Shown in pieces: positions 1,888 to 14,983 of a stretch of 64,000 nt of DNA. The translations under genes and the position numbers were made by a program. This DNA comes from Verrucomicrobiaceae bacterium (GTDB lineage Bacteria > Verrucomicrobiota > Verrucomicrobiia > Verrucomicrobiales > Verrucomicrobiaceae): positions 1 to 64,000 of the forward strand of contig JAEUHM010000046.1 of assembly GCA_016795485.1 (NCBI GenBank). Direction: 5' to 3'. How positions within the stretch are numbered: position 1 is the stretch's first letter; each line of letters starts with the position of its first letter. A model generated the notes under the pieces. The model was not told where the DNA came from. It did no database searches and was given only the letters and a program-made list of their open reading frames with translations.

Positions 1888-4800
1888 TTAGTGCGAAGCG
1901 GGCGCATCGTTTGCGATGGCTGTGGCCGCGGCTTTGCGACCGAAGGTGTAGAACACGGTGGGCGTGACACCGAGGCCGAGCAGGGTGCTGGTGACGAGTC
2001 CGCCGACGATGACGACGGCCACGGGATGCAGGATTTCTTTGCCCGGCTGATCGGCGGCGAGAACGAGCGGGATGAGGCCGATGCCTGCGGCCAACGCGGT
2101 CATGAGCACGGGCACGAGACGCTCCTTGGTGCCGCGAATGACCATCTTGCGCGTGAAGCTCTCGCCCTCGTGCTGCATGAGGTGCAGGTAATGGCTGATG
2201 AGCATGATGCTATTGCGAGCGGCGACTCCGGCGACGGCGATGAAGCCGACGAGCGTGGCGATGCTGATGTTGTTCAGCTTGAAGTAGGTGAAGACGAGGC
2301 CGCCGACGAGGGCGAGCGGGATGTCGCAGAGCACCTGGATGGCGAAGAATGGCGTGCGGAAGTAGCCGTAGAGGAGGAAGGCGATGACGGCGAGGATGAC
2401 GGCGGTGAAGATGGCGATGCGCTGCGTGGCCTCTTGCTGCGCTTGGAACTCGCCCTCAAAGGTGATGAAGTAGCCTTCGGGCATTTTCACTTTCTCGGTG
2501 ACTTCATCCCGCAACTTGACGACGAGGTTCGACACATCCTGAACAGTTGGTTTGATGGCGAGGGCAAAGCGGCGCTGGCTGTTCTCACGGAAGATGACGT
2601 TCGGCCCTTTGGCCTCGCGCACATCCGCGACGAGTGAAAGCGGGATGCGCTGCCCTTCACCAGCCTCGATGGGCAGCTCGGCGATTTTATCGGGTGAATC
2701 ACGCCACTCAATGGGCAGGCGGGTGACGAGATTGACGGCTCGCTGGCCTTCACGAAGTTCGGCGACTTCCTTGCCACCGATGAGGGCGGAAAGCTGGTCG
2801 TTCAGCTTGCCGGGGGCGATGCCGTAGGCTTTGGCGCGGTCACGGTCGGCCTCGATGCGAAGCTGCGGGATGCTGGAGGTCTGGTCGAGCTTGCAATCCT
2901 CGAAGCCGGGGATGGTCTTGGCGATGGTTTGGATCTCGATTCCGATCTGGCGGAGTTTTTCCAAATCAGGGCCGAAGACCTTGATGGCGACGGGCGCGGA
3001 CACGCCGCTCATCATGTGGCCGATGCGGTCGGCGAGCGGGCCGCTCACCACGGCAAAGACGCCGGGCACGGTTTTGAGCTTCTGGGTGATGTCTGCGATG
3101 ATCTCTTTGCGGCCACGGCCTCCGCTGGAGTGACCTTCGCCCTCACTCCCGTCTTTGCGGAAGTCCACGTCGAACTCGGCGGTGGAGACGGGGACGACGT
3201 GATCGCCGCGCTCGGCACGGCCCAGGCGGCGACCGACCTTTGACACGCCTTCGACCGAAAGAATCTGCTGCTCCAGCACATCGGAGATTTTGTTCATCTC
3301 CTCCAGCGAGGTGCCGGGAGCTGCCGTGGCCGCGACGAGCGCGGTTTCCTCCTGGAACTTGGGTAGGAAGTCCTTGTTCATCTTCGGATACAAAGAGAAC
3401 GCCGCGATGACGATCATCAGCACGATGCCGAGCATGACGAGCGGCTGGCTGAGACCGAAGCGCAGCAAGGTGTTCTCCAGCAGCCATTTCATGCCACGGG
3501 TGAGGAAGCCGTCCTTGTGCTCATGGCCGTGCTTTGGATTCAGCAGCATCGAGCACAGCACGGGGATGGCCGTGAGGGAGACGACGAAGGAAGCCATCAT
3601 CGAGATGATGGTGGCGACGGCGATGGGGGCAAAGAGCTTGCCCTCCACGCCGGTGAGTCCCAGCAACGGAAGGAACACGAGAATGATGAGCACGGTGGCG
3701 TAGAGGATGGAGTTTCGCACCTCGCCGGAGGCTCGTGCGATGACTTGCAGCTTCGGCTGCGGATGCGGCAGCGCCGCGTTCTCCCGTAGGCGGCGGAAGA
3801 CGTTCTCCACATCCACAATGGCATCGTCCACGACCATGCCGATGGCGACGGCGAGGCCGCCAAGGGTCATGCTGTTCACGCTGATGCCCATCCACAGGAA
3901 GACGAGCATGGTGATCCCGAAGGACAGCGGCATGGCCATCAGCGTGATGAAGGTGGTGCGGAAGTTCAGCAGGAACAGAAACAGCACAATCGTCACCATG
4001 ATCGCACCATCACGGATGGCCTCGGTGAGGTTTCCGATGGCGTTGTCGATGAAATCTTTTTGCTGGAAGAGCAGCGTGGTTTCGACGCCCTGCGGGAAGG
4101 TGGGCTTCAAATCTTCCAGCGCTCCTTTGATCTGCTCCGTGAGGGCGCGGGTGTCAAAGCCGGGTGCCTTGGTGATGGACATGATGACGCCGTAGGTGGC
4201 GGATTTCTCCGGGAACTGGCTCACGGTGGCATCCCCGCGCATCGGCTCCACACCCCAGACCACATTGGCGACATCACCGATGGAGATGGGGCGGTCATTG
4301 ACCTTCTTGATCACAGTGCGGGCGATGTCATCGAGTTCGACGGTCATGGCGAGATTGCGCACCATGATCTCGGTGGGGCCGGTGTTGATGAAGCCGCCCG
4401 TGGTGGTGTTGGCGGACTCGGTGGCGGCCTCTTCCAGCTCATCAAAGCTGACGCCGTTGGCCTGCATCTTAAAGGGATCAGGCTGGATTTCGATGCGCTT
4501 CACACCGCCACCCATGTTGAGGATTTCGGCGATGCCGGACACGCTTTGCAGACGGCGCTTGATCGTCCAGTCGGCCAGCGAGCGCACTTCACGCGGCGGC
4601 AGGTAGCCTGGCTCGCCTTCTTTGATGGTGGAGCGCACCCCGACGAGGAGGATCTCTCCCATCAAAGACGCCACGGGTGTCATGAACGGCTGCACGCCCT
4701 CCGGCAACTGTTCGCGCACGCCTTGCAGACGCTCCTGCACGAGCATTCGCGCCTTGTAGATGTCCATGTCCCAGCCGAACTCGGCATAGACGAGGGAGAG

Positions 4801-5067
4801 TGCCACGTCGGAGTTTGAGCGCAGACGCGTGAGGCCCGCGACACCCATGAGAGCGCTTTCAATGGGTTGCGTCACACGCATTTCGACTTCCTCAGGCGCG
4901 AGGCCGGGGGATTCCGTCAAGATGATGACGGTGGGCTTGGTGAGGTCTGGCAGCACCTCCACGGGCAGCTCGGTGGCCGTCTTCAAGCCCATCACCATGA
5001 GGATGAGCGCGGCCCCGATGATGAGCGCCCGGCTGGCGAGCGCCCAATGAATCATTTTGTTGAGCAT
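1888..5067 (-). CDS. Heavy-metal efflux RND transporter, CusA/CzcA family (cassette B)
   Basis: At 1059 residues this has the normal length of an HME-RND inner-membrane pump, which exports metal ions by proton antiport together with a periplasmic adaptor and an outer-membrane channel. It begins with the usual MLNKMIHWALASRALIIGAA helix and the ELPVEVLPDLTKP segment. Membrane helices fill the middle and the C-terminal quarter. The helix-4 signature near residues 400-415 reads AIGMVVDDAIVDVEN, which is not the DFGxxxDGAxxxVEN form of divalent-cation pumps, so the substrate may differ from that of the second pump in this window. The adaptor gene ends four bases upstream, so the two are certainly co-expressed. 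The metal specificity cannot be decided from sequence alone. Confidence 0.93.
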   Translation of the reverse strand: MLNKMIHWALASRALIIGAALILMVMGLKTATELPVEVLPDLTKPTVIILTESPGLAPEEVEMRVTQPIESALMGVAGLTRLRSNSDVALSLVYAEFGWDMDIYKARMLVQERLQGVREQLPEGVQPFMTPVASLMGEILLVGVRSTIKEGEPGYLPPREVRSLADWTIKRRLQSVSGIAEILNMGGGVKRIEIQPDPFKMQANGVSFDELEEAATESANTTTGGFINTGPTEIMVRNLAMTVELDDIARTVIKKVNDRPISIGDVANVVWGVEPMRGDATVSQFPEKSATYGVIMSITKAPGFDTRALTEQIKGALEDLKPTFPQGVETTLLFQQKDFIDNAIGNLTEAIRDGAIMVTIVLFLFLLNFRTTFITLMAMPLSFGITMLVFLWMGISVNSMTLGGLAVAIGMVVDDAIVDVENVFRRLRENAALPHPQPKLQVIARASGEVRNSILYATVLIILVFLPLLGLTGVEGKLFAPIAVATIISMMASFVVSLTAIPVLCSMLLNPKHGHEHKDGFLTRGMKWLLENTLLRFGLSQPLVMLGIVLMIVIAAFSLYPKMNKDFLPKFQEETALVAATAAPGTSLEEMNKISDVLEQQILSVEGVSKVGRRLGRAERGDHVVPVSTAEFDVDFRKDGSEGEGHSSGGRGRKEIIADITQKLKTVPGVFAVVSGPLADRIGHMMSGVSAPVAIKVFGPDLEKLRQIGIEIQTIAKTIPGFEDCKLDQTSSIPQLRIEADRDRAKAYGIAPGKLNDQLSALIGGKEVAELREGQRAVNLVTRLPIEWRDSPDKIAELPIEAGEGQRIPLSLVADVREAKGPNVIFRENSQRRFALAIKPTVQDVSNLVVKLRDEVTEKVKMPEGYFITFEGEFQAQQEATQRIAIFTAVILAVIAFLLYGYFRTPFFAIQVLCDIPLALVGGLVFTYFKLNNISIATLVGFIAVAGVAARNSIMLISHYLHLMQHEGESFTRKMVIRGTKERLVPVLMTALAAGIGLIPLVLAADQPGKEILHPVAVVIVGGLVTSTLLGLGVTPTVFYTFGRKAAATAIANDAPASH

Positions 5068-5070
5068 GGG

Positions 5071-6243
5071 TTACGCAGCCTCCTTTTCAGCGGGTTTCGG
5101 GGCGGGAGTCTCGGCTTCTTCACTGCGGCTTTTTTTGGTGAAGATGGAAAGCAGCAGCAGCACGGCCAAAGCGCCGGTGGCATACTTCCACAGCGGGCTG
5201 TCACCTTCTTCCTCGCCGTGCCCGTGCCCGTCTCCGCCGCCTTTTTTGGCATCCATCGCGGCTTTCTTCTCCGGCGTGAGTTCGGAGCCATCGGCGGCGT
5301 GTTCGTGACCGTGGGCGGCATCCAGCGCCTCTTTGAGCGAGACGCTGCTGGCTCCGGCAAAGGAGAGGGAATAGGCACCGCGAGTCACGACCTCATCCGC
5401 AGGCAGCAGGCCGCTGGTGATCTCGACAAAGCGGTCATTGATCTCGCCCACGATGACCGGTGTCTTCACGAAGGCGTTCGCGAGATCGAAGTCCTTCACA
5501 TAAACGAAGCGGCTGCCGCCCTCGCCCTGCAAGGCGGCACGCGGCACGCTGACCACGTTGCTGCGCTTGCTCATCACGATGCTGAACTCCGCCCGCATGT
5601 CGGCGCGGAGCTGGCCGCCGGTATTCGGCAGGCGGAAGATGGCATCAATCGTGCCGCTGGCCTTGTCCGCGCTGGTGCCGAAACGCAGCAGCTCGCCGTT
5701 GAATTTTTCATTGGGCAGCGCGGCCACTTTGATGTGCGCCACGGTGCCGGGCTTCATGCGTCCGGCCTGGTGCTCAGGCACACGCGCCACCGCATAGACC
5801 TCACTGAGGTCGGTGATCTCCAGCATGGCCTTTTCAGGATCAATGGGGTCGCCGAGGCGTGCATCCACATGGGTGACGAGTCCGCTGAGTGGTGCCTTGA
5901 GCACGATCACGGGTGGCGGATCACCCGGCTGGCGGCTCTCCACCTTTGCCACCTCGTCGCCTTCTTTCACCATGTCCCCAGGAGTGAGTTTCAGCTCCAC
6001 GATGCGGCCTGGAATGCGACTGCTGACTGCGGCGATCTTGCTGGGAATGGCCTCGATGCGTCCGAGCGAGAAGATGGTGGCCTCGAAATCGGTCTCCTCG
6101 ACTTCGACCGTCTCAATGCGGAGGTTTTTCACGCCGGTTTCATCCAGCACGACGGTGTTGGCCGCGCGTTTGTTGTCTTCGGCGGCAGTGGTGATGCCGG
6201 TCAAAGACAGGCAGAGGAATAAGTGAGCCAGGGGGCGTTTCAT
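5071..6243 (-). CDS. RND periplasmic adaptor with His-rich region and C-terminal membrane helix
   Basis: A 390-residue membrane-fusion protein of the CusB/CzcB type. A signal peptide (MKRPLAHLFLCLSLTGITTAA) is followed by the adaptor body: SSRIPGRIVELKLTPGDMV is the first lipoyl-type strand set, APLSGLVTHVDARLGDPI the second, then the beta-barrel and the membrane-proximal domain. The hairpin between the lipoyl halves is very short. After about residue 300 comes a His-rich segment (HGHEH, then GDGHGHGEEEGD) and a clear membrane helix (WKYATGALAVLLLLSIF) with a charged tail, which is unusual for an adaptor. The start was set at the ATG that opens the signal peptide, not at an upstream in-frame codon. 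It lies 19 bases after the TolC-type gene and 3 bases before the pump. Confidence 0.88.
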   Translation of the reverse strand: MKRPLAHLFLCLSLTGITTAAEDNKRAANTVVLDETGVKNLRIETVEVEETDFEATIFSLGRIEAIPSKIAAVSSRIPGRIVELKLTPGDMVKEGDEVAKVESRQPGDPPPVIVLKAPLSGLVTHVDARLGDPIDPEKAMLEITDLSEVYAVARVPEHQAGRMKPGTVAHIKVAALPNEKFNGELLRFGTSADKASGTIDAIFRLPNTGGQLRADMRAEFSIVMSKRSNVVSVPRAALQGEGGSRFVYVKDFDLANAFVKTPVIVGEINDRFVEITSGLLPADEVVTRGAYSLSFAGASSVSLKEALDAAHGHEHAADGSELTPEKKAAMDAKKGGGDGHGHGEEEGDSPLWKYATGALAVLLLLSIFTKKSRSEEAETPAPKPAEKEAA

Positions 6244-6262
6244 GATGAGAGTCAGGTGGAAA

Positions 6263-7513
6263 TTAGCGGGTAGGTTTCGGTGCGGGCGTGGCCGGGGCGT
6301 GCTTGCCGATGGCGGCCTCGTAGCGGATGCGGGCGAGATGAAAATCACGCACGGCATCCAGCGCGGCGGCTTCCAGTTGCAGGCGTTGCTCGCGGGCGCG
6401 GAGGATGGTGAGCAGGTCAGTCTGGCCGCTCTCGTAGGCTTTTTCGAGCTTGCCGGTCTGCTCGATCACGAGCGGCAGGAGCTTGTCGCGGGTCTCATGC
6501 GCGAGGTCATAGCTGGTCTGCATATCCCTCCGGGCATTCTCCGCATCACTGAGGATTTGCTTGGCGAGCGCCGCCTGCTCCAGGCGCACACGCTCTGCGG
6601 CGGCGGTCTTCTCGGCTATCTGGCCCTCGTTCTTGTTCCAAAACGGCAGCGGCAGCGAGACGCGGAAACCGATCACACCATTGGTGCGGCGATCATCGCC
6701 AGAGGCATTCTGATACTCAGGCCCGGCGAAGATGCCCGCGCTCACGTCCTGCCACTTGTTGGCTTTGGCGAGGTTGATGTCGGTCTGAGAAGCGATGACC
6801 TTGGCCTCCGCGAGCTGATAGTCGGCACGCAGCATCCAGTTCGCCCCTTTACCCGGCACACCCATTTCCGGGAGTGCGCCGGAGATCGACAGCGCAGCAT
6901 CAGGATCAAGGTCGAGCATGGGCTTGAGAGTGCCCAGCAGGCTGCGGCTTTCGCCCTCCAGCTTGCGGGCTTCTACGATGAGGCGCTGCGCGTCCACCTG
7001 GGCCTGGGCGGCATCCAGCGCGGAGAGTTCACCCGCCTTGGCACGTCCGGTGACGAACTCGGAGAGCTTTTTCGCCAGCTCCGTCTGCTGCTGGCGCAAA
7101 CCTCGCTGCTGCTCGATGGCGAGAATCTGCACCGCCAAAGTCTGCGCCTCGGAAATCAAACGGCGCTCGGCATCCCTCACCTCCAGCTCCGCTGCGGTGA
7201 CGAGCTGCGCGGTGAGCTGCTTCTCCAGCCGCAAGCGTCTGGTGATCGGGAACGATTGATCGAGCGACATCATGACCTCCCCCGGCGAAAGGTAGGTTTC
7301 ATTCCGGGTATCCACGCCCACCGTGGGATTGGAGAGACGCCCCGCCCCGAGCTGGCGGCCACGGGCCTCCTCCACGGCCATGCGGGCGGCTTTCAACGAG
7401 GGATGAGCGGCACGGACACGCGGCCCGATGTCGGAAAGAGAAAGAGTGAGTGCCGGAGCTGATGAAACAGCCGCCAGGAACAAGGAGAAAGTCAGTGAGA
7501 TGGAACGAAGCAT
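6263..7513 (-). CDS. TolC/CzcC-family outer-membrane efflux channel (cassette B)
   Basis: This 416-residue protein has a signal peptide (MLRSISLTFSLFLAAVSSAPA) and two outer-membrane efflux protein repeats: long amphipathic helices rich in Ala, Glu, Gln and Arg separated by beta segments (VGFRVSLPLPFWNKNEGQI is the typical second-repeat strand). Its length matches CzcC/CusC. It should form the trimeric outer-membrane duct for the adaptor and pump encoded just downstream. No lipobox is present, unlike E. coli CusC. The C-terminus is Pro/Lys-rich (APATPAPKPTR). Confidence 0.92.
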   Translation of the reverse strand: MLRSISLTFSLFLAAVSSAPALTLSLSDIGPRVRAAHPSLKAARMAVEEARGRQLGAGRLSNPTVGVDTRNETYLSPGEVMMSLDQSFPITRRLRLEKQLTAQLVTAAELEVRDAERRLISEAQTLAVQILAIEQQRGLRQQQTELAKKLSEFVTGRAKAGELSALDAAQAQVDAQRLIVEARKLEGESRSLLGTLKPMLDLDPDAALSISGALPEMGVPGKGANWMLRADYQLAEAKVIASQTDINLAKANKWQDVSAGIFAGPEYQNASGDDRRTNGVIGFRVSLPLPFWNKNEGQIAEKTAAAERVRLEQAALAKQILSDAENARRDMQTSYDLAHETRDKLLPLVIEQTGKLEKAYESGQTDLLTILRAREQRLQLEAAALDAVRDFHLARIRYEAAIGKHAPATPAPKPTR

Positions 7514-7628
7514 GGAAAGGGTGGTGGTTTGTGGTTTGCAGGCGTGGACAGGCCATGCCTAGAGCAGTGAAAAGATCGCCAATGCGCCTCAAGCCGTCAG
7601 TCGTGGACGGCGGCGCGGGCTTTCAGCC

Positions 7629-8078
7629 TCAAACCAAAATCACCATGCAACGAGCCACCTGCACAGCGGCAGATGGCGGACTATCTCCCCCGGTGTCCAG
7701 GGGCGTCTTCATCCATTCATTCTCGGCGCGTGCCTGAATCTGCACCCAATCGTGAATCCAAGTCTCGGCGACGAGCACCGCGACGAAGGCAGGAATCGAA
7801 ACAGTCGCCAAATTGGAGGGCGCGGCCTGCATATCCACGCTCAGAGGCGTGTGGTGCTCTTTCTCACCTTTGTCGTCACAGTCCTTGGTGGAGCTTTCCT
7901 CGCAGGGCACCTCACCCGCGTGGTCATCCACGATCACGCGATGGCAGTGCTCCGCTTTCGTCTCTACTGGCGCATCGCCATGAGCACAGGCATAGCCACA
8001 CTGCACGCCAAACACCTGCACACACGCGACGACCAGAACGGCCAGCGTGGGGAGGATGCGTTTGCGGAAAAGTGACAT
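7629..8078 (-). CDS. Small exported Cys/His-rich protein, first gene of cassette B
   Basis: A 149-residue protein with a signal-peptide-like N-terminus (MSLFRKRILPTLAVLVVACVQVFG) and a mature part holding seven Cys and many His and Asp (CGYACAHG, EHCHRVIVDDHAGEVPC, DCDDKGEKEHH). A second hydrophobic segment (ATVSIPAFVAVLVAETWI) follows. The ATG at 8078 was preferred to an upstream in-frame TTG at 8117, because it places the signal peptide at the N-terminus. It matches the small Cys/His-rich protein that begins the other cassette, and both resemble in position and size the CzcI-type proteins encoded ahead of czcCBA. That parallel is inference, not a recognised family match. Confidence 0.65.
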   Translation of the reverse strand: MSLFRKRILPTLAVLVVACVQVFGVQCGYACAHGDAPVETKAEHCHRVIVDDHAGEVPCEESSTKDCDDKGEKEHHTPLSVDMQAAPSNLATVSIPAFVAVLVAETWIHDWVQIQARAENEWMKTPLDTGGDSPPSAAVQVARCMVILV

Positions 8079-8132
8079 GAGCGGTGCTAAGATGCTCTCG
8101 GGGCTGAAACTATTCAACTTTAATTTTGAAGC

Positions 8133-8177: not shown

Positions 8178-8612
8178 TCACTCGTCGCAAGTGCAGGCGT
8201 ATTCCGGGTTGCCGCACTCTTTGCAGGTGTGGAGTTCCAGCTTGATGCGGAAGTTCTTGGTTTTCGCATCGGGGGTGGACTTGGCTTGGACGACGACTTG
8301 GTAGCCTTCGCCTTCGGGGAGCTTGGTTTTGGAGACGAGGAGGTCGCCTTTCTTCTCGAACTCGATCTTGGTTTTGCCGCTGGGGGCTTCGGCGGTGGCG
8401 GTGATGACCTCCGTGGTGGCGGGCTGGGCTTTCAGCGCGGCGTCATAGACGGCGATGCTGATGCTGCGGTCTTTCTCGACGAGGAACTCGGCTTGCTTGC
8501 CGCCAAGATCGAGGAGGAGACCTTTGCGGGGGCCGGCTTTGACTTTGGTATCGGCAAAGGCGGAGCCAGTGGCGAGGGCGGCGATGATGAGGATGTGGAG
8601 CAGTGTTTTCAT
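8178..8612 (-). CDS. Small exported protein with CxxC...CxC tail, RND-associated (cassette A)
   Basis: A 144-residue protein with a signal peptide (MKTLLHILIIAALATGSAFA), a beta-rich middle and the tail HTCKECGNPEYACTCDE. It is a paralogue of the protein encoded at 1328-1804, sharing the early K-x-GP...G segment, the VPEG/LPEG turn and the EYACTC tail, but it lacks the N-terminal His cluster. The inner ATG at 8612 was chosen because it starts the signal peptide. It lies 10 bases downstream of the pump gene, so it belongs to the same operon. A periplasmic metal-binding role is inferred from the four conserved Cys and the location. Confidence 0.75.
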   Translation of the reverse strand: MKTLLHILIIAALATGSAFADTKVKAGPRKGLLLDLGGKQAEFLVEKDRSISIAVYDAALKAQPATTEVITATAEAPSGKTKIEFEKKGDLLVSKTKLPEGEGYQVVVQAKSTPDAKTKNFRIKLELHTCKECGNPEYACTCDE

Positions 8613-8622
8613 GGTGTGTTTG

Positions 8623-11600
8623 TTAGTTTGGCGTTGGGTTCTTGGTTTTGCGCTCAATCCAGTCGTAGAGCACAGGCACGACGAGCAGGGTGAGGAAAGT
8701 GGAGGTGAGGATGCCGCCGATGACGACGGTGGCGATGGGGCGCTGGACTTCGGCCCCGGCTCCGGTGGCGAGGGCCATGGGGAGGAAGCCGAGGCTGGCG
8801 ACGAGGGCGGTCATGAGCTTGGGCCGCAGGCGGGTGAGGGTGCCTTCGAGCACGGCTTCCCGCACGCCTCGGCCTTCACTGCGGAGCTGGTTGATGAAGC
8901 TGATGAGCATGATGCCATTGAGCACGGCGATGCCGCTGAGGGCGATGAAGCCGACGGCGGCGCTGATAGTGAAGGGCATGCCGCGCAGGTGCAGGGCGAA
9001 GATGCCGCCGGTGACGGCAAGCGGCACACACATGAAGATGAGCGTGGCCTGCCGGAAGGAGCCGAAGCTGAGGAAGATGAGCACGAAGATCAAGGCGAGG
9101 GCGAGCGGCACGACGATCATGAGGCGGGCCTTTGCTTCTTGCAGGTTTCTGAACTGGCCGCCGAACTCGAAGTAGTAGCCATCTGGAAAGGCTACCTTTT
9201 CGCGGATGAGGCGGGTGGCTTCATCGACGAAGCTCTGGGTATCGCGTCCGCGCACGTTGATGAGGATGCTGACGCGGCGCTGGGTGTCCTCACGGGCGAT
9301 CTGCACGGGCTGCGGGGTGAGGGTGATTTTGGCGACTTGGCCGAGTGCCAACATGCCGCCATCATCGGTGCGGAGGGCGAGGCGTTTGATGCCTTCGAGA
9401 TCACTGCGGCGGTCTTCACTAAGGCGGACGACGATGGGGCTGCGGCGGTTGCCATCGATGAGCTGGCCGACTTCCGCTCCGGCGAGGGCGGTCTCGATGA
9501 GGTGGTTCAACTCGTCGGCGTGGACGTTGAACTTGCGCATGGCTTCGCGGTCGGGCTGGATTTCGATCATGGGGTTCTTGCCGATGTTGTCGAACTCGGT
9601 CTCGCTGCCGCCACGGATGCTGCTGATGACGGTGCGTGCCTCGCCAGCGAGGCGCTCGAGTTCGTCGTAGCTGTCGCCAAAGACTTTGCACACGAGGTCG
9701 GCGCGTGCTCCGGCCATGATCTCGTTGAAGCGCATCTGGATGGGCTGGGTGACGAGGATGTTTTGGCCGGGCACCTGATCCAGCAGGGCGGTGCGCATGA
9801 GTTCGCCAAGGCGATCTTTGCTGATGGTGTGTCCGTCTTCCTGCCTCCACTGCTCACGCGGGGCGAGCATGATGTAGGTGTCGGCCACGTTGGGGTTCAT
9901 GGGATCGGTGGCGATCTCGGCGGTGCCGATGCGGGAGAAGATTTCCTTCACTTCGGGGAAGTCGCGGCGGATGACGGCCTCGCTTTGCTTTTGCAATTCG
10001 AGCGAGGAAGAAAGCCCGGCGCTGCTGCTGCGGATGAGCTGGAAGGCGAAGTCGCCCTCATCGAGCTGCGGGATGAACTCGGAGCCAAGGCGTGAGAAGA
10101 CCCACAGCGAGGAGCCGAAGAGGATGAGCATGGGCAGGACGATGAGCGGCTTGAAACGCAGGCCGAACTGCAAGAGCGGTGTGTAGAGGCGCTTCGTGAG
10201 GGTGACGAGCCAGTTGTCCTTTTCCTGAATCTTCCCACCGAGAAGATAAGAGCACAGCACGGGCATGAGGGTGACGGCGAGCACGAGCGAGGCTCCGAGC
10301 GCGAGCATGACGACGAGGGCCATGGGCTTGAACATTTTCCCCTCGATGCCTTGCAGGGCGAGGATGGGCACATAGACGACGGTGATGATGAGCACGCCGA
10401 AGAACATGGGATTGGCGACTTCTTTGGCGGACTTGAGCACTTCCTCGCTGCGCTCCCGCAGGGTGAGGGTGCGACCGAGCGCGTGCTGACGCTCCCCGAG
10501 GTGGCGGACGATGTTTTCCACCATGACGACGGCGCCATCAATGATGAGGCCGAAGTCGATGGCTCCGAGGCTCATCAAGTTTCCGCTGATGTGGTAGCGC
10601 ACCATGCCGGTCATGGCGATGAGCATGGAAAGCGGGATGACGAGGGCGACGATGAAGGCGGCGCGAAAGTTCCCCAGCAGAGCAAAGAGCACGACGACGA
10701 CGAGCAATGCGCCCTCGGCGAGATTCTTCTCCACGGTGGCGATGGTGCGGCTGACGAGGGCGCTGCGATCATAGAGGGTGCGAATGGTGACTCCGTGGGG
10801 GAGCTTTTCCTGAATCTCCGCCAAACGGCTGCGGACGGCTTGGGCGACGAGGCGTGAGTTTTCCCCTGCAAGCATGATGGTGGCTCCGATGAGGGCTTCC
10901 TTTCCGTCATCGGTGGAGGCTCCGGTGCGGAAGGCGCTGCCGATGGTGACGCTGGCGACTTCGCTGATAAGAATGGGCCGCACGCCACCAGCGAACTTCA
11001 GCGGGATGGCGAGGATTTGCTCCATGTCGGTGACGCGGCTGGCAGCGCGGATGATGAGCTGCTCACCGCCGATCTCGACGTAGCCGCCACCTGCATTGCG
11101 GGTGTTTTGCTCCACGATCTCGGCCAGCATGTCGAGCGAGAGGCCGCGTGCGGCGAGGCGGGCGGGATCAGGCTGGATGACGATCTGCTTTTGATAACCG
11201 CCGCTGGTATTCACCTCCGCGACGCCCGTGGTGGCACGGAGGAGAGGCTTCACCTGATACTCCTGAATCTGCGCCAGCTCCATGAGCTGGGCCTCGCGGG
11301 TGGCGGGCTTGGTCTTCGCGTCGTCGGTGTAATCGAGGCCGTAGTAGAAGATCTCGCCAAGGCCGGTGGCGACAGGGGCGAGCTTGGGCGTGAGGCCGGG
11401 CGGCAGGTCATCAAGCACGGCTTGCAGTCTCTCGGTGACGAGCTGGCGGGTGCGGTAGAGGTCCACGCCATCCTCAAAGATCATGGTGACCTGGGAGAGG
11501 CCGAGCTTTGACAAGGAACGCAGCTCGACCATCTGCGGCAAGCCGGCCATCTCGCTCTCGATGGGAAAGGAGACGAGCTTTTCGATCTCCTCCGGGGCGA

Positions 11601-11766
11601 GGGCGGAGACGGCGGTATTGATCTGCACCTGCGGATTGGTGATGTCCGGCACGGCATCAATCGGCAGATGAATGGCGGACCAGGTGCCGATGCCAATGAG
11701 GATGAACGTGGCGAGCAGCACGGCGGCGCGCTGCCGCATGGCGAGGGTGATGAGATGAGCGAGCAT
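8623..11766 (-). CDS. czcA: Heavy-metal efflux RND transporter, CzcA family (cassette A)
   Basis: This is a 1047-residue HME-RND pump. It opens with MLAHLITLAMRQRAAVLLA and has the HLPIDAVPDITNPQVQI segment typical of CzcA/CusA proteins. Helix 4 near residues 404-418 carries DFGLIIDGAVVMVEN, which fits the DFGxxxDGAxxxVEN signature of pumps for divalent cations such as Zn, Co, Cd or Ni. The two acidic residues there are those needed for proton coupling in CzcA. The periplasmic strand NEIMAGARADLVCKVFGDS also matches the CzcA form. It follows a metallothionein-like gene by 56 bases. The gene symbol rests on family resemblance; the exact metal is not known. Confidence 0.93.
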   Translation of the reverse strand: MLAHLITLAMRQRAAVLLATFILIGIGTWSAIHLPIDAVPDITNPQVQINTAVSALAPEEIEKLVSFPIESEMAGLPQMVELRSLSKLGLSQVTMIFEDGVDLYRTRQLVTERLQAVLDDLPPGLTPKLAPVATGLGEIFYYGLDYTDDAKTKPATREAQLMELAQIQEYQVKPLLRATTGVAEVNTSGGYQKQIVIQPDPARLAARGLSLDMLAEIVEQNTRNAGGGYVEIGGEQLIIRAASRVTDMEQILAIPLKFAGGVRPILISEVASVTIGSAFRTGASTDDGKEALIGATIMLAGENSRLVAQAVRSRLAEIQEKLPHGVTIRTLYDRSALVSRTIATVEKNLAEGALLVVVVLFALLGNFRAAFIVALVIPLSMLIAMTGMVRYHISGNLMSLGAIDFGLIIDGAVVMVENIVRHLGERQHALGRTLTLRERSEEVLKSAKEVANPMFFGVLIITVVYVPILALQGIEGKMFKPMALVVMLALGASLVLAVTLMPVLCSYLLGGKIQEKDNWLVTLTKRLYTPLLQFGLRFKPLIVLPMLILFGSSLWVFSRLGSEFIPQLDEGDFAFQLIRSSSAGLSSSLELQKQSEAVIRRDFPEVKEIFSRIGTAEIATDPMNPNVADTYIMLAPREQWRQEDGHTISKDRLGELMRTALLDQVPGQNILVTQPIQMRFNEIMAGARADLVCKVFGDSYDELERLAGEARTVISSIRGGSETEFDNIGKNPMIEIQPDREAMRKFNVHADELNHLIETALAGAEVGQLIDGNRRSPIVVRLSEDRRSDLEGIKRLALRTDDGGMLALGQVAKITLTPQPVQIAREDTQRRVSILINVRGRDTQSFVDEATRLIREKVAFPDGYYFEFGGQFRNLQEAKARLMIVVPLALALIFVLIFLSFGSFRQATLIFMCVPLAVTGGIFALHLRGMPFTISAAVGFIALSGIAVLNGIMLISFINQLRSEGRGVREAVLEGTLTRLRPKLMTALVASLGFLPMALATGAGAEVQRPIATVVIGGILTSTFLTLLVVPVLYDWIERKTKNPTPN

Positions 11767-11822
11767 GAGGTGAAGAATGAGCGTCCGCCGACTGGAGTCG
11801 GCGGACGCCGTGGGTGTGCTAG

Positions 11823-12056
11823 TTAGTCAGCGCAGCACTCGCAGCCGGTGCAGCAGCCTGGGTCGCAGGAGCAGACACCAGCCTCACAGCAACTGCCGGT
11901 GAGGCAGCAGCAGTCACCCGTGGCGCAGCAAGCGCCACCCGTGCAGCAGGCAGCGGCAAGGCAGCAGTTGGACTTGGCGTCCGTGCTGGATTGAGTGGCT
12001 GCATAGAGACCGGTGAGGGTCAGGATGAGGGCAAGAGACAGGAACAATGTTTTCAT
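11823..12056 (-). CDS. Exported metallothionein-like Cys-rich small protein
   Basis: A 77-residue protein begins with a clear signal peptide (MKTLFLSLALILTLTGLYA) and has about 58 mature residues, 18 of them Cys. They occur mostly as CC pairs plus one CCC (NCC, ACC, ACC, DCCC, SCC, VCSC, GCC, GCECC). No His or aromatic residue is present in the mature part. Such density is typical of metallothioneins, which bind d10 metals through Cys thiolate clusters, but those are normally cytoplasmic; a signal peptide would place this one in the periplasm or outside. It sits between adaptor and pump genes of an RND metal-efflux operon, which supports metal binding. No known metallothionein family (Pfam or otherwise) was recognised. 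Confidence 0.75.
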   Translation of the reverse strand: MKTLFLSLALILTLTGLYAATQSSTDAKSNCCLAAACCTGGACCATGDCCCLTGSCCEAGVCSCDPGCCTGCECCAD

Positions 12057-12087: not shown

Positions 12088-12501
12088 TTAAGTCGGCGGA
12101 GTGCCGACGTGGTGGAAGTGGTGTGGCTGCTTTGGAGGCGGCAAAGGAGGCCGCTCGGTGCGTGAAGGCGCACGCTGCGACAAAGGACGAATGCCTTGGG
12201 CATTGAGCGGGCAGGTCTGTGGAGCACTCATCACCACAGGAGGCATGGTGGACGTGATGTGCAGACAGCAGGCACAGTCGCAGCCTTGGTTGGTGTCCTG
12301 GCAGGGGCAGTCGGAATGGTGCTCAGTGTTGTCTGACGGCATGTCTTTGCAGCAGATCATCTCGCACGCCGGCATCCGGGGTGAGCACTTCCCCTGATGC
12401 GCCTGACTCCACGGCACCGCAAACAACGGCAGCAGCACGACGAGCATGATCCAGGTGATCATGCGATGCTGTTTGCGGTGATGGAGGCTGGTGGAGAACA
12501 T
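12088..12501 (-). CDS. Small exported Cys/His-rich protein
   Basis: A 137-residue protein with a basic N-terminus, a hydrophobic segment (MITWIMLVVLLPLFAVPWSQA) and a Cys-rich part of about 45 residues holding ten Cys (AC, ICC, CPC, GCDCACC). A Pro/His-rich tail (PPLPPPKQPHHFHH) ends the protein. The ATG at 12501 lies 9 bases after the adaptor gene stop; another ATG at 12462 directly before the membrane segment is also possible. The context suggests periplasmic metal binding. It looks like small proteins of the CzcI/DUF2946 sort, but I could not confirm membership. Confidence 0.65.
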   Translation of the reverse strand: MFSTSLHHRKQHRMITWIMLVVLLPLFAVPWSQAHQGKCSPRMPACEMICCKDMPSDNTEHHSDCPCQDTNQGCDCACCLHITSTMPPVVMSAPQTCPLNAQGIRPLSQRAPSRTERPPLPPPKQPHHFHHVGTPPT

Positions 12502-12510
12502 GGCCAAGGT

Positions 12511-13206
12511 TTAGTGGCCGCAGGTGCAGGCTTTGCCGCCACGGAGGACTTGGAGTTCCGCCAGCCAGAGTGACATGACGGGCGTGGTGACGATCTCATC
12601 GCCTGAATAGAGGCCGTCGGTGATCTCGACGTGCTCTCCGCTCGCCGCGCCGACCTTGACGGGTGTGCGCAGATAGAACTCGTCGTTCTTCGCATAAACA
12701 AATGTGCCCTCGGCAGTGGTGAGCAGCGCGGCCTTCGGAATCGCGGTCACAGCATCGCCAGCGGCAAAGCGGAAGGTGGCGCTGAGGGCGCTGCCTGCCT
12801 CCAGCGTGGCCGCGCTCTGCACGGTGACTTCAAAATCACCCAGCGTGATGAAGGGGGCCTTCTCCACGCGGAGCACGCTACCCTTTTCCTCACCAAAAAC
12901 GACCTCCATGCCGGGCTGCACGCGTGCCGCCTGGGCCTCGGTGAGCCAGCCGCTAGCCTCGGTGCCGCGCTGCATGGCCTGCAAGGTGACGGTGAAGCTA
13001 GCCGCGATTTTTTCCTCCGCGACCTCGGCGGTTTGCAGGCCGATGGAACGGCGCATCTGCTCGGTGAGGGCCACGCCTTTTCCCTCCTTGAAGTGAGCGC
13101 CATTCTCCGGCGCGGGTGTGGCAGCGCCAGGGCTGGCCTGCGAGTCGAGGCAGCTCGTGAGGGTGAGTGAAAGTGCGGCGAGAAGGGTGCAAAGAATGAG
13201 TTTCAT
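12511..13206 (-). CDS. Short RND adaptor lipoprotein lacking the alpha-hairpin
   Basis: At 231 residues this is far shorter than CzcB/CusB adaptors (about 380-520). A lipobox (LTLTSC, Cys19) predicts an outer- or inner-membrane lipoprotein. The rest matches only the beta-barrel and membrane-proximal parts of the family: the segment IPKAALLTTAEGTFVYAKND, then a VEITDGLYSGDEIVTTP strand set that is the usual C-terminal signature. The lipoyl and alpha-hairpin parts that dock on TolC are missing. It ends in KACTCGH, recalling the CTC tails of the two small exported proteins of the same cluster. It lies 12 bases after the TolC-type gene. There is no sign of a frameshift; the reduction seems genuine. 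Confidence 0.8.
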   Translation of the reverse strand: MKLILCTLLAALSLTLTSCLDSQASPGAATPAPENGAHFKEGKGVALTEQMRRSIGLQTAEVAEEKIAASFTVTLQAMQRGTEASGWLTEAQAARVQPGMEVVFGEEKGSVLRVEKAPFITLGDFEVTVQSAATLEAGSALSATFRFAAGDAVTAIPKAALLTTAEGTFVYAKNDEFYLRTPVKVGAASGEHVEITDGLYSGDEIVTTPVMSLWLAELQVLRGGKACTCGH

Positions 13207-13218
13207 GGTGGTGAGAAG

Positions 13219-14481
13219 TTAGTTTTTGATGGTGACGAGGCTGGCGGGTGCGCCGGTGAGTTCTTCGAGTGCGAGGGCGGCCTCCAGCGCCTGGCTCTGC
13301 GCCTCGCTGATGGATTCGACGGCTTCGAGATACTTGTCTTGAAGCTCCACGAAGGTGCTCATCGGCACCGCACCGATTCGGTAGTGGCGGTCAGCCAGCG
13401 CGGCGGCTTCGCTGAACTTGGCGATGGCATCGCCCTTCCACACGGCGCTGCGAGATTGCTGCGTTTTGAACAATAGCGCGGACTCCGTGACCTGCCGCTC
13501 CACCTCACGCTGGGCGCTGCTCAGTGTGGCCTGCGCCTGCACCTGCCGTGCCTCGGCACTGGTCACCTCCGCCTTGCCAGATTTCCAAAACGGCAGCGGA
13601 AAGGAGATGCCGATCCCTGCCACGGTTTGGTCATCGAGCGAGCGGGTGTTTTGCACCTCGACGAATGGGCCGACGGTAAAGGTGGGGTAGCGTTCGTTCT
13701 TGGCGAGTTCGACCTTGAAGCCTTGCTGCTCCAGCTCCGCACGGCGGATGCGCAGGTCGTAGTGGTTCTTCATCGCCGTGCCGAGAAGTGAATCAAGTGA
13801 AGGCGCTGTTTTCAGCGTGAAGGCATCCCGCTTCACGATGAGCGGCGTGTCGGCCCGGCGGCCCATGAGCTGATTCAGCTCCAGCAACGCCTTTTGCACT
13901 GTCACGCCCGCCGTCGCAGCGCGTGACTCCGCCACCAATGTCGCCGCCTCAACAGTCACGCTTTCCAACTGCGGCGCAATGCCTGCTGCCTCGCGCTGCA
14001 CCATCACCTCTCGCAGAGCGGCATAGCGTGCGGCTACCTCGCCGGCTGCCGCTGCCACCTCCTGCTGAGCCGCCAGCGTGTAACCAAGCACGCGGACACG
14101 CGAGGCGAGGTGAAAACGGAAACGCTCCAGCCCCAGCTCCGCCAGAGCGATGTCGCGGTTCGCGATGGCCTTTCGCAAGCCCAGCCGCCCCGGCCATTCG
14201 ATGGGCTGTGCCAGCGATGCCGCAAAGGCAAGGCCGTTAGAGCGTGACTCGGTGCCTTTGAGTCGGTTTTGGCCGACCTCCAGGCTGAGTTCAGGGTTCG
14301 AGGGCCTGCCCGCCGCGCTGCCAGCAGCCTTGGCGGAGGCGATTTCCGCCTCGTAGAAGCGGATTTCAGGATTGGCAGCTAAAGTCCTCCCCACCAACTG
14401 CGTTAGGGTGAGAGGCTGCGGTTTATCCTCCGCCAGCACAGGCAGAGTGAGAAGGGTCAAAAGAGTAACGGTGAGTTTCAT
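13219..14481 (-). CDS. czcC: TolC/CzcC-family outer-membrane efflux channel (cassette A)
   Basis: A 420-residue protein with a signal peptide (MKLTVTLLTLLTLPVLA) and two outer-membrane efflux repeats. The characteristic segments are RPSNPELSLEVGQNRLKG in the first and ISFPLPFWKSGKAEVTSAEA in the second repeat, the latter matching the corresponding strand of the other channel protein in this window (PLPFWNKNEGQI). The ATG at 14481 was preferred because it opens the signal peptide; an ATG two codons upstream is equally open. It should be the outer-membrane part of the cassette A pump. How it would dock with the hairpin-less adaptor downstream is unclear. Confidence 0.9.
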   Translation of the reverse strand: MKLTVTLLTLLTLPVLAEDKPQPLTLTQLVGRTLAANPEIRFYEAEIASAKAAGSAAGRPSNPELSLEVGQNRLKGTESRSNGLAFAASLAQPIEWPGRLGLRKAIANRDIALAELGLERFRFHLASRVRVLGYTLAAQQEVAAAAGEVAARYAALREVMVQREAAGIAPQLESVTVEAATLVAESRAATAGVTVQKALLELNQLMGRRADTPLIVKRDAFTLKTAPSLDSLLGTAMKNHYDLRIRRAELEQQGFKVELAKNERYPTFTVGPFVEVQNTRSLDDQTVAGIGISFPLPFWKSGKAEVTSAEARQVQAQATLSSAQREVERQVTESALLFKTQQSRSAVWKGDAIAKFSEAAALADRHYRIGAVPMSTFVELQDKYLEAVESISEAQSQALEAALALEELTGAPASLVTIKN

Positions 14482-14590
14482 AAGCATGAGATTCCAGACA
14501 GCGGTGAATGGGCGCGAGAACACGCCACAAGTGCAAACAAGCGCCTGAAAGCTCAGCGGGCCGCATCGTGACGGCTCAAGCTCAGGACGC

Positions 14591-14983
14591 TCAAATCAGA
14601 GCACAATCAGGCCCGCGCACCGGACAAGCCGTGCGTGCCAGAAACTCACACAATCGCCGCACAGGCGGCCCGTGAACTGATAAGAGAACCTCCGCAGAGC
14701 TATCCGCATCCACGACCGGCAACACAAGCTGCATGACGACAGGAAGAGCAAACTCCGGCTGCGCCTCCAAGCCCAGCTTCACCGCCAATGTGGCCCCATT
14801 TTCCAGATAATCACACACCTGGCACTCATCGGAAACCGGCTCATGCTCCTCATCATGCTCGCCTTCATGACAAACATGCTCCGCACAACACGTCGCCCCA
14901 CCCAACACCCCAAAACGCTCCAAGGAGCAATGCACGAGGCACGACACCCAAAGGCATAAAATGATGGCGGAGAGAAACTTCAC
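14591..14983 (-). CDS. Small exported Cys/His-rich protein, first gene of cassette A
   Basis: A 130-residue protein starts with GTG and a hydrophobic signal-like segment (KFLSAIILCLWVSCLVHC), then a Cys/His/Glu-rich stretch (TCCAEHVCHEGEHDEEHEP, CQVC). The ending LARTACPVRGPDC resembles the Arg-Ala-Pro type ending of CzcI-like proteins. It is the first gene of the whole minus-strand metal run, 109 bases ahead of the TolC-type gene, so it may be a periplasmic sensor or buffer for the cluster; this is inferred from position only. No ribosome binding site is obvious at the GTG. Confidence 0.6.
   Translation of the reverse strand: MKFLSAIILCLWVSCLVHCSLERFGVLGGATCCAEHVCHEGEHDEEHEPVSDECQVCDYLENGATLAVKLGLEAQPEFALPVVMQLVLPVVDADSSAEVLLSVHGPPVRRLCEFLARTACPVRGPDCALI

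Follow-up and report, generated by a model that had tools for sequence, protein, structure and literature searches.

A family of small, predicted exported, metallothionein-like proteins in metal-resistance clusters of the Verrucomicrobiales that probably soaks up copper-like metals outside the cytoplasm

A 64,000-nucleotide stretch of a Verrucomicrobiaceae genome, here called the window, encodes a small cysteine-rich protein, MT1, which lies in an operon for a heavy-metal RND pump (Table 1) and represents a rare family found only in the order Verrucomicrobiales. MT1 is a real coding gene whose product is under strong purifying selection, MT genes are accessory in both czc and copper clusters, and the family is, as judged from sequence, metallothionein-like in composition and outside the known metallothionein, Csp and bufferin families. 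The probable role of the MT1 family is to mop up toxic, copper-like metals beyond the cytoplasm; in our judgement MT1 is rather likely to be an accessory, exported, metallothionein-like thiolate sponge for soft metals, leaning towards Cu(I).

Table 1 Features of the MT1 operon and its surroundings in the window
Feature	Position	Strand	Basis
MT1, predicted exported Cys-rich metallothionein-like protein	11823..12056	-	77 aa, 18 Cys; ORF, Cys layout, purifying selection, profile homologues
Predicted Sec signal peptide of MT1, MKTLFLSLALILTLTGLYA	12000..12056	-	Read from sequence; passes hydrophobicity filter; without lipobox Cys
Perfect 13-bp stem hairpin between MT1 and czcA	11781..11808	-	14 nt past MT1 stop; no strong U-tract
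Small exported Cys/His protein, CopL/CutF-like, with a Pro-rich end; MT1 partner	12088..12507	-	139 aa; NF033807 CopL_fam E=1e-4
Short hairpin GUCGGC/GCCGAC, last codons of the CopL-like gene	12092..12108	-	About 35 nt ahead of MT1 start
CzcB1-type short adaptor	12511..13206	-	231 aa; TIGR01730 E=4.8e-12, profile positions 231-313 of 322 only
TolC1, TolC-type outer-membrane factor	13219..14523	-	PF02321 E=5.5e-30
Small exported Cys/His-rich protein, operon head	14591..14983	-	ORF; CutF/CzcI-like by appearance only
CzcA1, heavy-metal RND pump	8623..11766	-	TIGR00914 1229 bits; PDB ZneA 636 bits, CusA 532 bits
hyp159, exported protein ending in a Cys cluster, after czcA1	8178..8657	-	ORF; position after CzcA1 shared by most related operons
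Second efflux set hyp162, TolC2, CzcB2, CzcA2 (CusA-like)	1888..8117	-	ORFs, Pfam/NCBIfam and PDB

The MT1 reading frame starts with ATG, and its N-terminus, as judged by eye and by a hydrophobicity filter of our own making, carries a lysine and a hydrophobic core followed by LYA and AT, between which the predicted cut leaves a mature chain of 58 residues. The earlier note had described a signal peptide and 18 cysteines in a mature peptide of about 58 residues, almost all in CC or CCC groups, and both points hold, the former as a prediction: 15 of the 18 cysteines lie in CC or CCC, the successive runs being 2, 2, 2, 3, 2, 1, 1, 2, 1 and 2 and the gaps between them mostly four residues (4, 4, 4, 4, 4, 1, 3, 2 and 1). 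MT1 has no histidine and only two aromatic residues, both inside the signal, leaving the mature part without either, and its 18 cysteines in 58 mature residues agree with the general composition of metallothioneins, which are small and very rich in cysteine with no or few aromatics. The cysteine fraction of 0.234 is the highest among the 392 ORFs of at least 50 aa in the window (runner-up 0.154), and 20 random windows from a first-order Markov model reached no more than 0.164. Compared with the copy in UBA2429 (contig DDQZ01000024.1, the same stretch as that of genome G049), 11 of 234 bases differ, with pS 0.18 and pN 0.006 (P = 4.8e-6 if neutral), and a comparable synonymous excess is missing from the two remaining frames of that strand. 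Since ten of the 11 differences are synonymous and one is non-synonymous, we conclude that it is the product that has been selected.

Searches of Pfam and NCBIfam gave no family match for MT1, its paralogue MT2 or the homologue in G085, the only Pfam row for MT1 being PF08592 at E 0.21, far below the cut-off. A PDB search with MT1 returned nothing significant (best metallothionein E 4.9), and tblastn of plasmids with three family members gave no match; the possibility of a new family, raised in the earlier note, thus appears to be realised. Single-sequence AlphaFold predicted no fold for MT1 (pLDDT 57, pTM 0.30), which would fit, as weak evidence, the expectation for an apo-metallothionein.

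A profile built from MT1, MT2 and the G085 homologue (A1), which recovers them by construction, had matches at E<=0.01 in 15 of 386 genomes of the order. Full-length exported Cys-rich homologues number seven copies in six of the 386 genomes, namely MT1 and MT2 in the window genome (G000) and single copies in G049, G085, G477, G071 and G466. MT2 is a protein of 71 aa with 18 Cys (G000:C41:2027-2242). Spacing across the family is loose, with x3 to x5 between CC pairs, and the number of cysteines varies, one member having 13, an odd number; the family alignment has no conserved non-Cys core. The weak A1 matches in nine of the 15 genomes were read individually and left out of the family count: G007 encodes an exported peptide of 50 aa made of three CC-x4 units, a probable short relative; G539 a 41-aa lipoprotein with two CC; G006 a Cys-containing exported ORF of bufferin-like look beside an MNIO gene (PF05114) in the same bacterial family (L094 / G006:C11 about 112700-113820); G624 and G708 exported proteins whose longer domain bears a Cys cluster at the N-terminus; and G430, G600, G603 and G658 no exported Cys-rich ORF. 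A seven-member profile run against 387 genomes of the phylum gave no convincing added member, the matches in G160 and G264 being weak, with few Cys, and not counted. A broad DNA pattern of four CC units matched in 55 of these 387 genomes, and among the matches listed almost all were TGC/TGT simple repeats, so the pattern was set aside as evidence. A single-sequence search gave matches at E<=1 in 43 of 96 relatives, and of the loci L001-L031 those outside G000, G049 and G085 were dropped, since the filter picked out no exported Cys-rich ORF in them. G160 and G038 contain a different small exported family with the pattern CC..C.H.CC..C..C (L096 1501-1740 (+), L171 2069-2392 (-)).

On the minus strand the MT1 operon runs in the order small Cys/His-rich protein, TolC1, short CzcB-type adaptor, CopL/CutF-like gene, MT1, CzcA1 and hyp159, and the second set (hyp162-TolC2-CzcB2-CzcA2) comes after hyp159. 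The earlier reading of a metallothionein-like composition within an RND metal-efflux operon is supported by the ORF and the family matches. Its placement of MT1 between adaptor and pump is right on the downstream side, where czcA follows, and needs correction upstream, where the neighbour is the CopL/CutF-like gene. CzcA1 has the zinc pump ZneA as its closest PDB match, followed by CusA, and bears DFGLIIDGAVVMVEN, which we take to be of the divalent-cation type; CzcA2 bears AIGMVVDDAIVDVEN and best matches CusA (449 bits), with ZneA at 441 bits. The match of CzcB1 to the adaptor profile is confined to the C-terminal part, its own last residues being CTCGH, and hyp159, which matched no Pfam or NCBIfam family over the cut-off, has the C-terminal Cys cluster CKECGNPEYACTCDE. 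Because CzcB1 is short and hyp159 is Cys-ended, and both are present in most of the CzcA1 operons compared, the two may together make up a split adaptor. Both efflux operons start with a small exported Cys/His-rich ORF of CutF/CzcI-like appearance (14591-14983 and 7629-8117); neither gave a family over the cut-off, and the former had no Pfam or NCBIfam match.

The partner gene, which sits directly upstream of MT1 and after the adaptor, encodes a protein with an export-like N-terminus, a CxxxC motif in the form CEMIC and a C terminus with RAPSRTERPPLPPP..VGTPPT, and its UBA2429 copy, 87% identical, is likewise upstream of the MT gene. CutF-like proteins are described in part of PMC9973294 as often lying directly upstream of metal-detoxification genes, CzcI upstream of czcCBA being one of them, and CruR, as presented in part of PMC9426467, is the case for comparison: exported, with CxxxC and a Pro-rich end, and upstream of a metal-defence gene. 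The partner has the features of CutF, CruR and CopL (export signal, CxxxC, Pro-rich end and a metal-defence gene next), and this likeness to CutF/CruR/CopL/CzcI leaders is a feature of the partner, not of the MT gene. Because its CopL_fam score of 22.9 bits (20.2 bits for the UBA2429 copy) is below the cut-off of 40 and a Pfam search gave no match to DUF2946, we suggest by analogy that it may work like CutF-type proteins and do not assign it as a member. A possible counterpart lies ahead of the three-unit peptide of G007, where a similar-looking exported Cys ORF (22% identity) gave no family match; the peptide is downstream of this ORF (L095 929-1123 and 1300-1674 (-)), the next gene is a CPA2-type antiporter, and the two genes represent a possible minimal form of the partner and MT pair.

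The short hairpin in the last codons of the partner gene is identical in UBA2429, with a weak fold z-score of only -1.74; it leaves the MT1 start uncovered, and in this the cutO stem-loop differs. The hairpin between MT1 and czcA is kept in UBA2429 as 12 bp, and a mobile or dispersed-repeat boundary at this point was rejected, since the palindrome occurs a single time in the genome at up to two mismatches. Synonymous divergence (dS) from UBA2429 is 0.21 and 0.23 in MT1 and the partner, and 0.43 in CzcA1, 0.60 in CzcB1 and 0.77 in TolC1; a separate transfer of the pair is not claimed on this low dS, because hyp162 (0.17) and TolC2 (0.24) of the second set are equally low.

Every one of the six family copies whose neighbours are visible belongs to a metal-resistance cluster, the opposite of what the earlier note had said would refute its reading, namely homologues mainly without metal genes. 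Two of the seven copies (MT1 and that of UBA2429) stand beside czc genes and the remaining ones with visible neighbours in copper clusters, so the special tie to czcA that had been proposed was not supported. Three kinds of site can be distinguished. At the first, the gene lies between czcB and czcA, as in the window and in UBA2429, where a CDF gene (PF01545) intervenes between the MT gene and czcA. At the second, MT2 is flanked on one side by a multicopper oxidase (PF07732/PF07731) and on the other by a YHS lipoprotein (PF04945, slightly below the cut-off); an HMA-MauE protein comes after them, and a divergent set of anti-sigma, CnrX-like and ECF sigma genes is also present. At the third, in G085, G477 and G071, the MT gene immediately precedes anti-sigma/CnrX-like/ECF genes of the same orientation; G085 and G071 have a Cu-type P-type ATPase after these, G085 has a multicopper oxidase as well, and the G477 contig ends soon past the sigma gene. 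The label anti-sigma rests on gene position, and CnrX-like on Metal_resist, the only family given by Pfam and just under its cut-off. The G466 copy is at a contig end with no metal gene visible and is outside the six.

Several other small proteins were seen in such clusters. The copper cluster of G085 encodes a second CC-rich protein (L034 1564-1755 (-)), a lipoprotein of 63 aa that has 12 Cys and lies past the multicopper oxidase-YHS pair; a small lipoprotein of G009 with three CC pairs (KDCC, KSCC, ASCC) adjoins ECF/CnrX-like genes (L161 6041-6295 (-)); and many copper clusters share, next after the gene for the ECF sigma factor, a conserved lipoprotein of ~100-110 aa with paired CxxC and an HHCSxH end (L166, L167, L168, L170, L172, L033 5916-6350). 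In G044 (L163) the czc operon adjoins the multicopper oxidase/CnrX/ECF copper cluster.

The accessory nature of the MT gene is apparent from operons that are otherwise closely related. CzcA1 relatives of at least 78% identity occur 24 times, one of them partial, in 22 of 68 genomes of the bacterial family; 21 upstream regions were read (G047, G036:C51 and the partial G023:C2 being outside the count), of which 20 are complete and one, in G537, is cut by the contig end. The CopL-like and MT pair is present in two of these 20 complete czc operons, those of the window and UBA2429, and absent from 18, three of which have a CDF gene at that spot instead. Among adjacent multicopper oxidase-YHS pairs (29 loci), 11 of 12 have no MT gene and only the window genome has MT2 between the two genes. 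CnrX-like genes, present in 82 of the 386 genomes, are far commoner than MT.

Comparison with known systems indicates that the MT1 family is set apart, because it is like each of them in one respect and has the defining features of none. SmtA-type proteins, with a zinc-finger fold, and the 4.9-kDa MymT type are the bacterial metallothioneins given in section 16 of PMC7558416, a section in which export is unmentioned. MT1 is like SmtA/BmtA/PmtA and MymT in being small and Cys-rich, with predicted thiolate clusters and metal-resistance role, and unlike them in its signal peptide, its CC-x3/4 repeats and a mature part without His or aromatics; neither Pfam/NCBIfam nor similarity to solved metallothioneins places it among them, and its N-terminus is predicted, by hydrophobicity and cleavage pattern, to be of the Sec type and not that of a cytoplasmic protein. 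Predicted Tat signals are reported for Csp1 and Csp2 in part of PMC5171941, and Csps appear in part of PMC7558416 as rigid four-helix bundles that are already folded before Cu binding. MT1 resembles the copper-holding Csp1 and Csp2 in being exported, by prediction, and Cys-rich, and is unlike them in its Sec-type signal, its CC repeats and the lack of a predicted fold. No Pfam match connects it to the Csp four-helix bundle family, presumably PF03860, and its low-confidence model has no helical fold past the signal region. Part of PMC12452194 describes bufferins as Cys peptides that leave by the Sec route, carry modifications made by an MNIO enzyme and bind periplasmic copper. Buf1 and Buf2 are comparable to MT1 as Sec-exported Cys peptides, in MT1 by prediction, and they sequester periplasmic copper. 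A search of open-licence PMC articles turned up neither an exported bacterial metallothionein nor the MT1 family as a subject, which in that scope is a weak absence.

Other explanations of MT1 have been weighed against the sponge. A disulfide-rich secreted peptide with a structural or protective role and no metal binding would suit export to an oxidising compartment and the even number of cysteines in MT1 and MT2, and weak look-alikes in the PDB include the disulfide peptides haemadin and an atracotoxin (E 0.76-1.1, not significant), beside the one metallothionein mentioned above. The number and spacing of cysteines differ among members, however, the alignment has no core outside the cysteines, and every visible context is one of metal resistance; because of the loose spacing and the 13-Cys member, a fully disulfide-bonded fold is ill-suited to the family, and we consider this explanation unlikely. 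The earlier note had suggested a periplasmic metal buffer or donor to the pump, and a dedicated metal chaperone to CzcA1, as CusF is for CusCBA, would agree with the position of MT1 directly upstream of czcA1 and with the copy within the UBA2429 czc operon. Yet the CDF gene separates MT from czcA in UBA2429, homologues occur in copper clusters that lack a CzcA1-type pump, and no CusF-like globular fold is predicted for MT1; because 18 of the 20 close czc operons do without the gene, the donor role was not upheld and is in our view distinctly improbable.

Small exported Cys ORFs within metal operons may also be regulatory leaders of the CutF/CruR type, in which translation, and not the product, controls the next gene, and the strong hairpin past the MT1 stop codon could be read in this way. 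MT1, however, has no Pro-rich, arrest-like C terminus, its product is highly constrained, copies stand at three kinds of site ahead of unrelated genes, and it is the adjoining 139-aa ORF that is CutF-like, so that there is only a slim chance that MT1 is itself the leader. A bufferin-type RiPP precursor, with cysteines modified by an MNIO enzyme (PF05114) before binding copper, would find parallels in the signal-bearing peptides with up to 18 Cys that precede some MNIO genes according to part of PMC12452194, and in the weak A1 match beside the MNIO gene of G006. MNIO genes were found in three of the eight genomes tested (G466, G006 and G007) and not in G049, G085, G477, G071 or the window genome, which is 99.87% complete, and the Cys layout of MT1 is unlike that of Buf1 and Buf2 as described in the same source. 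A modified peptide of this kind is disfavoured because no MNIO gene was found in the window genome, and we give it hardly any credence.

We therefore prefer the exported thiolate sponge, because of the composition of MT1, the constraint on it, the exclusively metal-related contexts, the loose spacing, the 13-Cys member and the lack of a predicted fold. Against this preference stands the oxidising nature of the periplasm, in which free thiols may become disulfide-bonded. We propose that MT1 would be exported by Sec and, after cleavage of the signal, yield a chain of about 58 residues with CC-x3/4 units, which would fold round soft metal ions as thiolate clusters in the periplasm. The metal would most likely be Cu(I), possibly Cd or Zn, and its identity is uncertain because the pump encoded next to MT1 has the zinc pump ZneA, and not a Cu pump, as its best PDB match. 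MT1 may thereby buffer metal not yet cleared by the RND pump and the copper enzymes, with the two copies of the window genome serving two clusters, MT1 the czc operon and MT2 the copper operon, and the CutF/CopL-like gene upstream may tie MT1 translation to extracytoplasmic metal. More tentatively, and with considerable doubt on our part, the pair could be a drop-in module of sensor and sponge, in which a CutF-like nascent-chain metal sensor is combined with an exported, unmodified CC-x3/4 metallothionein and closed by a hairpin, acting outside the cytoplasm with a capacity that varies by repeat number; this number ranges from three CC units in G007 to 7-8 CC/CCC runs in the window genome.

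Because the genes occur in copper as well as zinc-type clusters, at three kinds of site, their function can be tested directly. If the sponge reading is true, it raises the question of how the thiols of a periplasmic metallothionein stay reduced. The exported thiol copper stores described in the parts of the literature cited here are either folded (Csp) or modified by an enzyme (bufferins), and an unmodified periplasmic CC-repeat metallothionein would be a third solution, with MT1 as a compact, exportable metal sponge.
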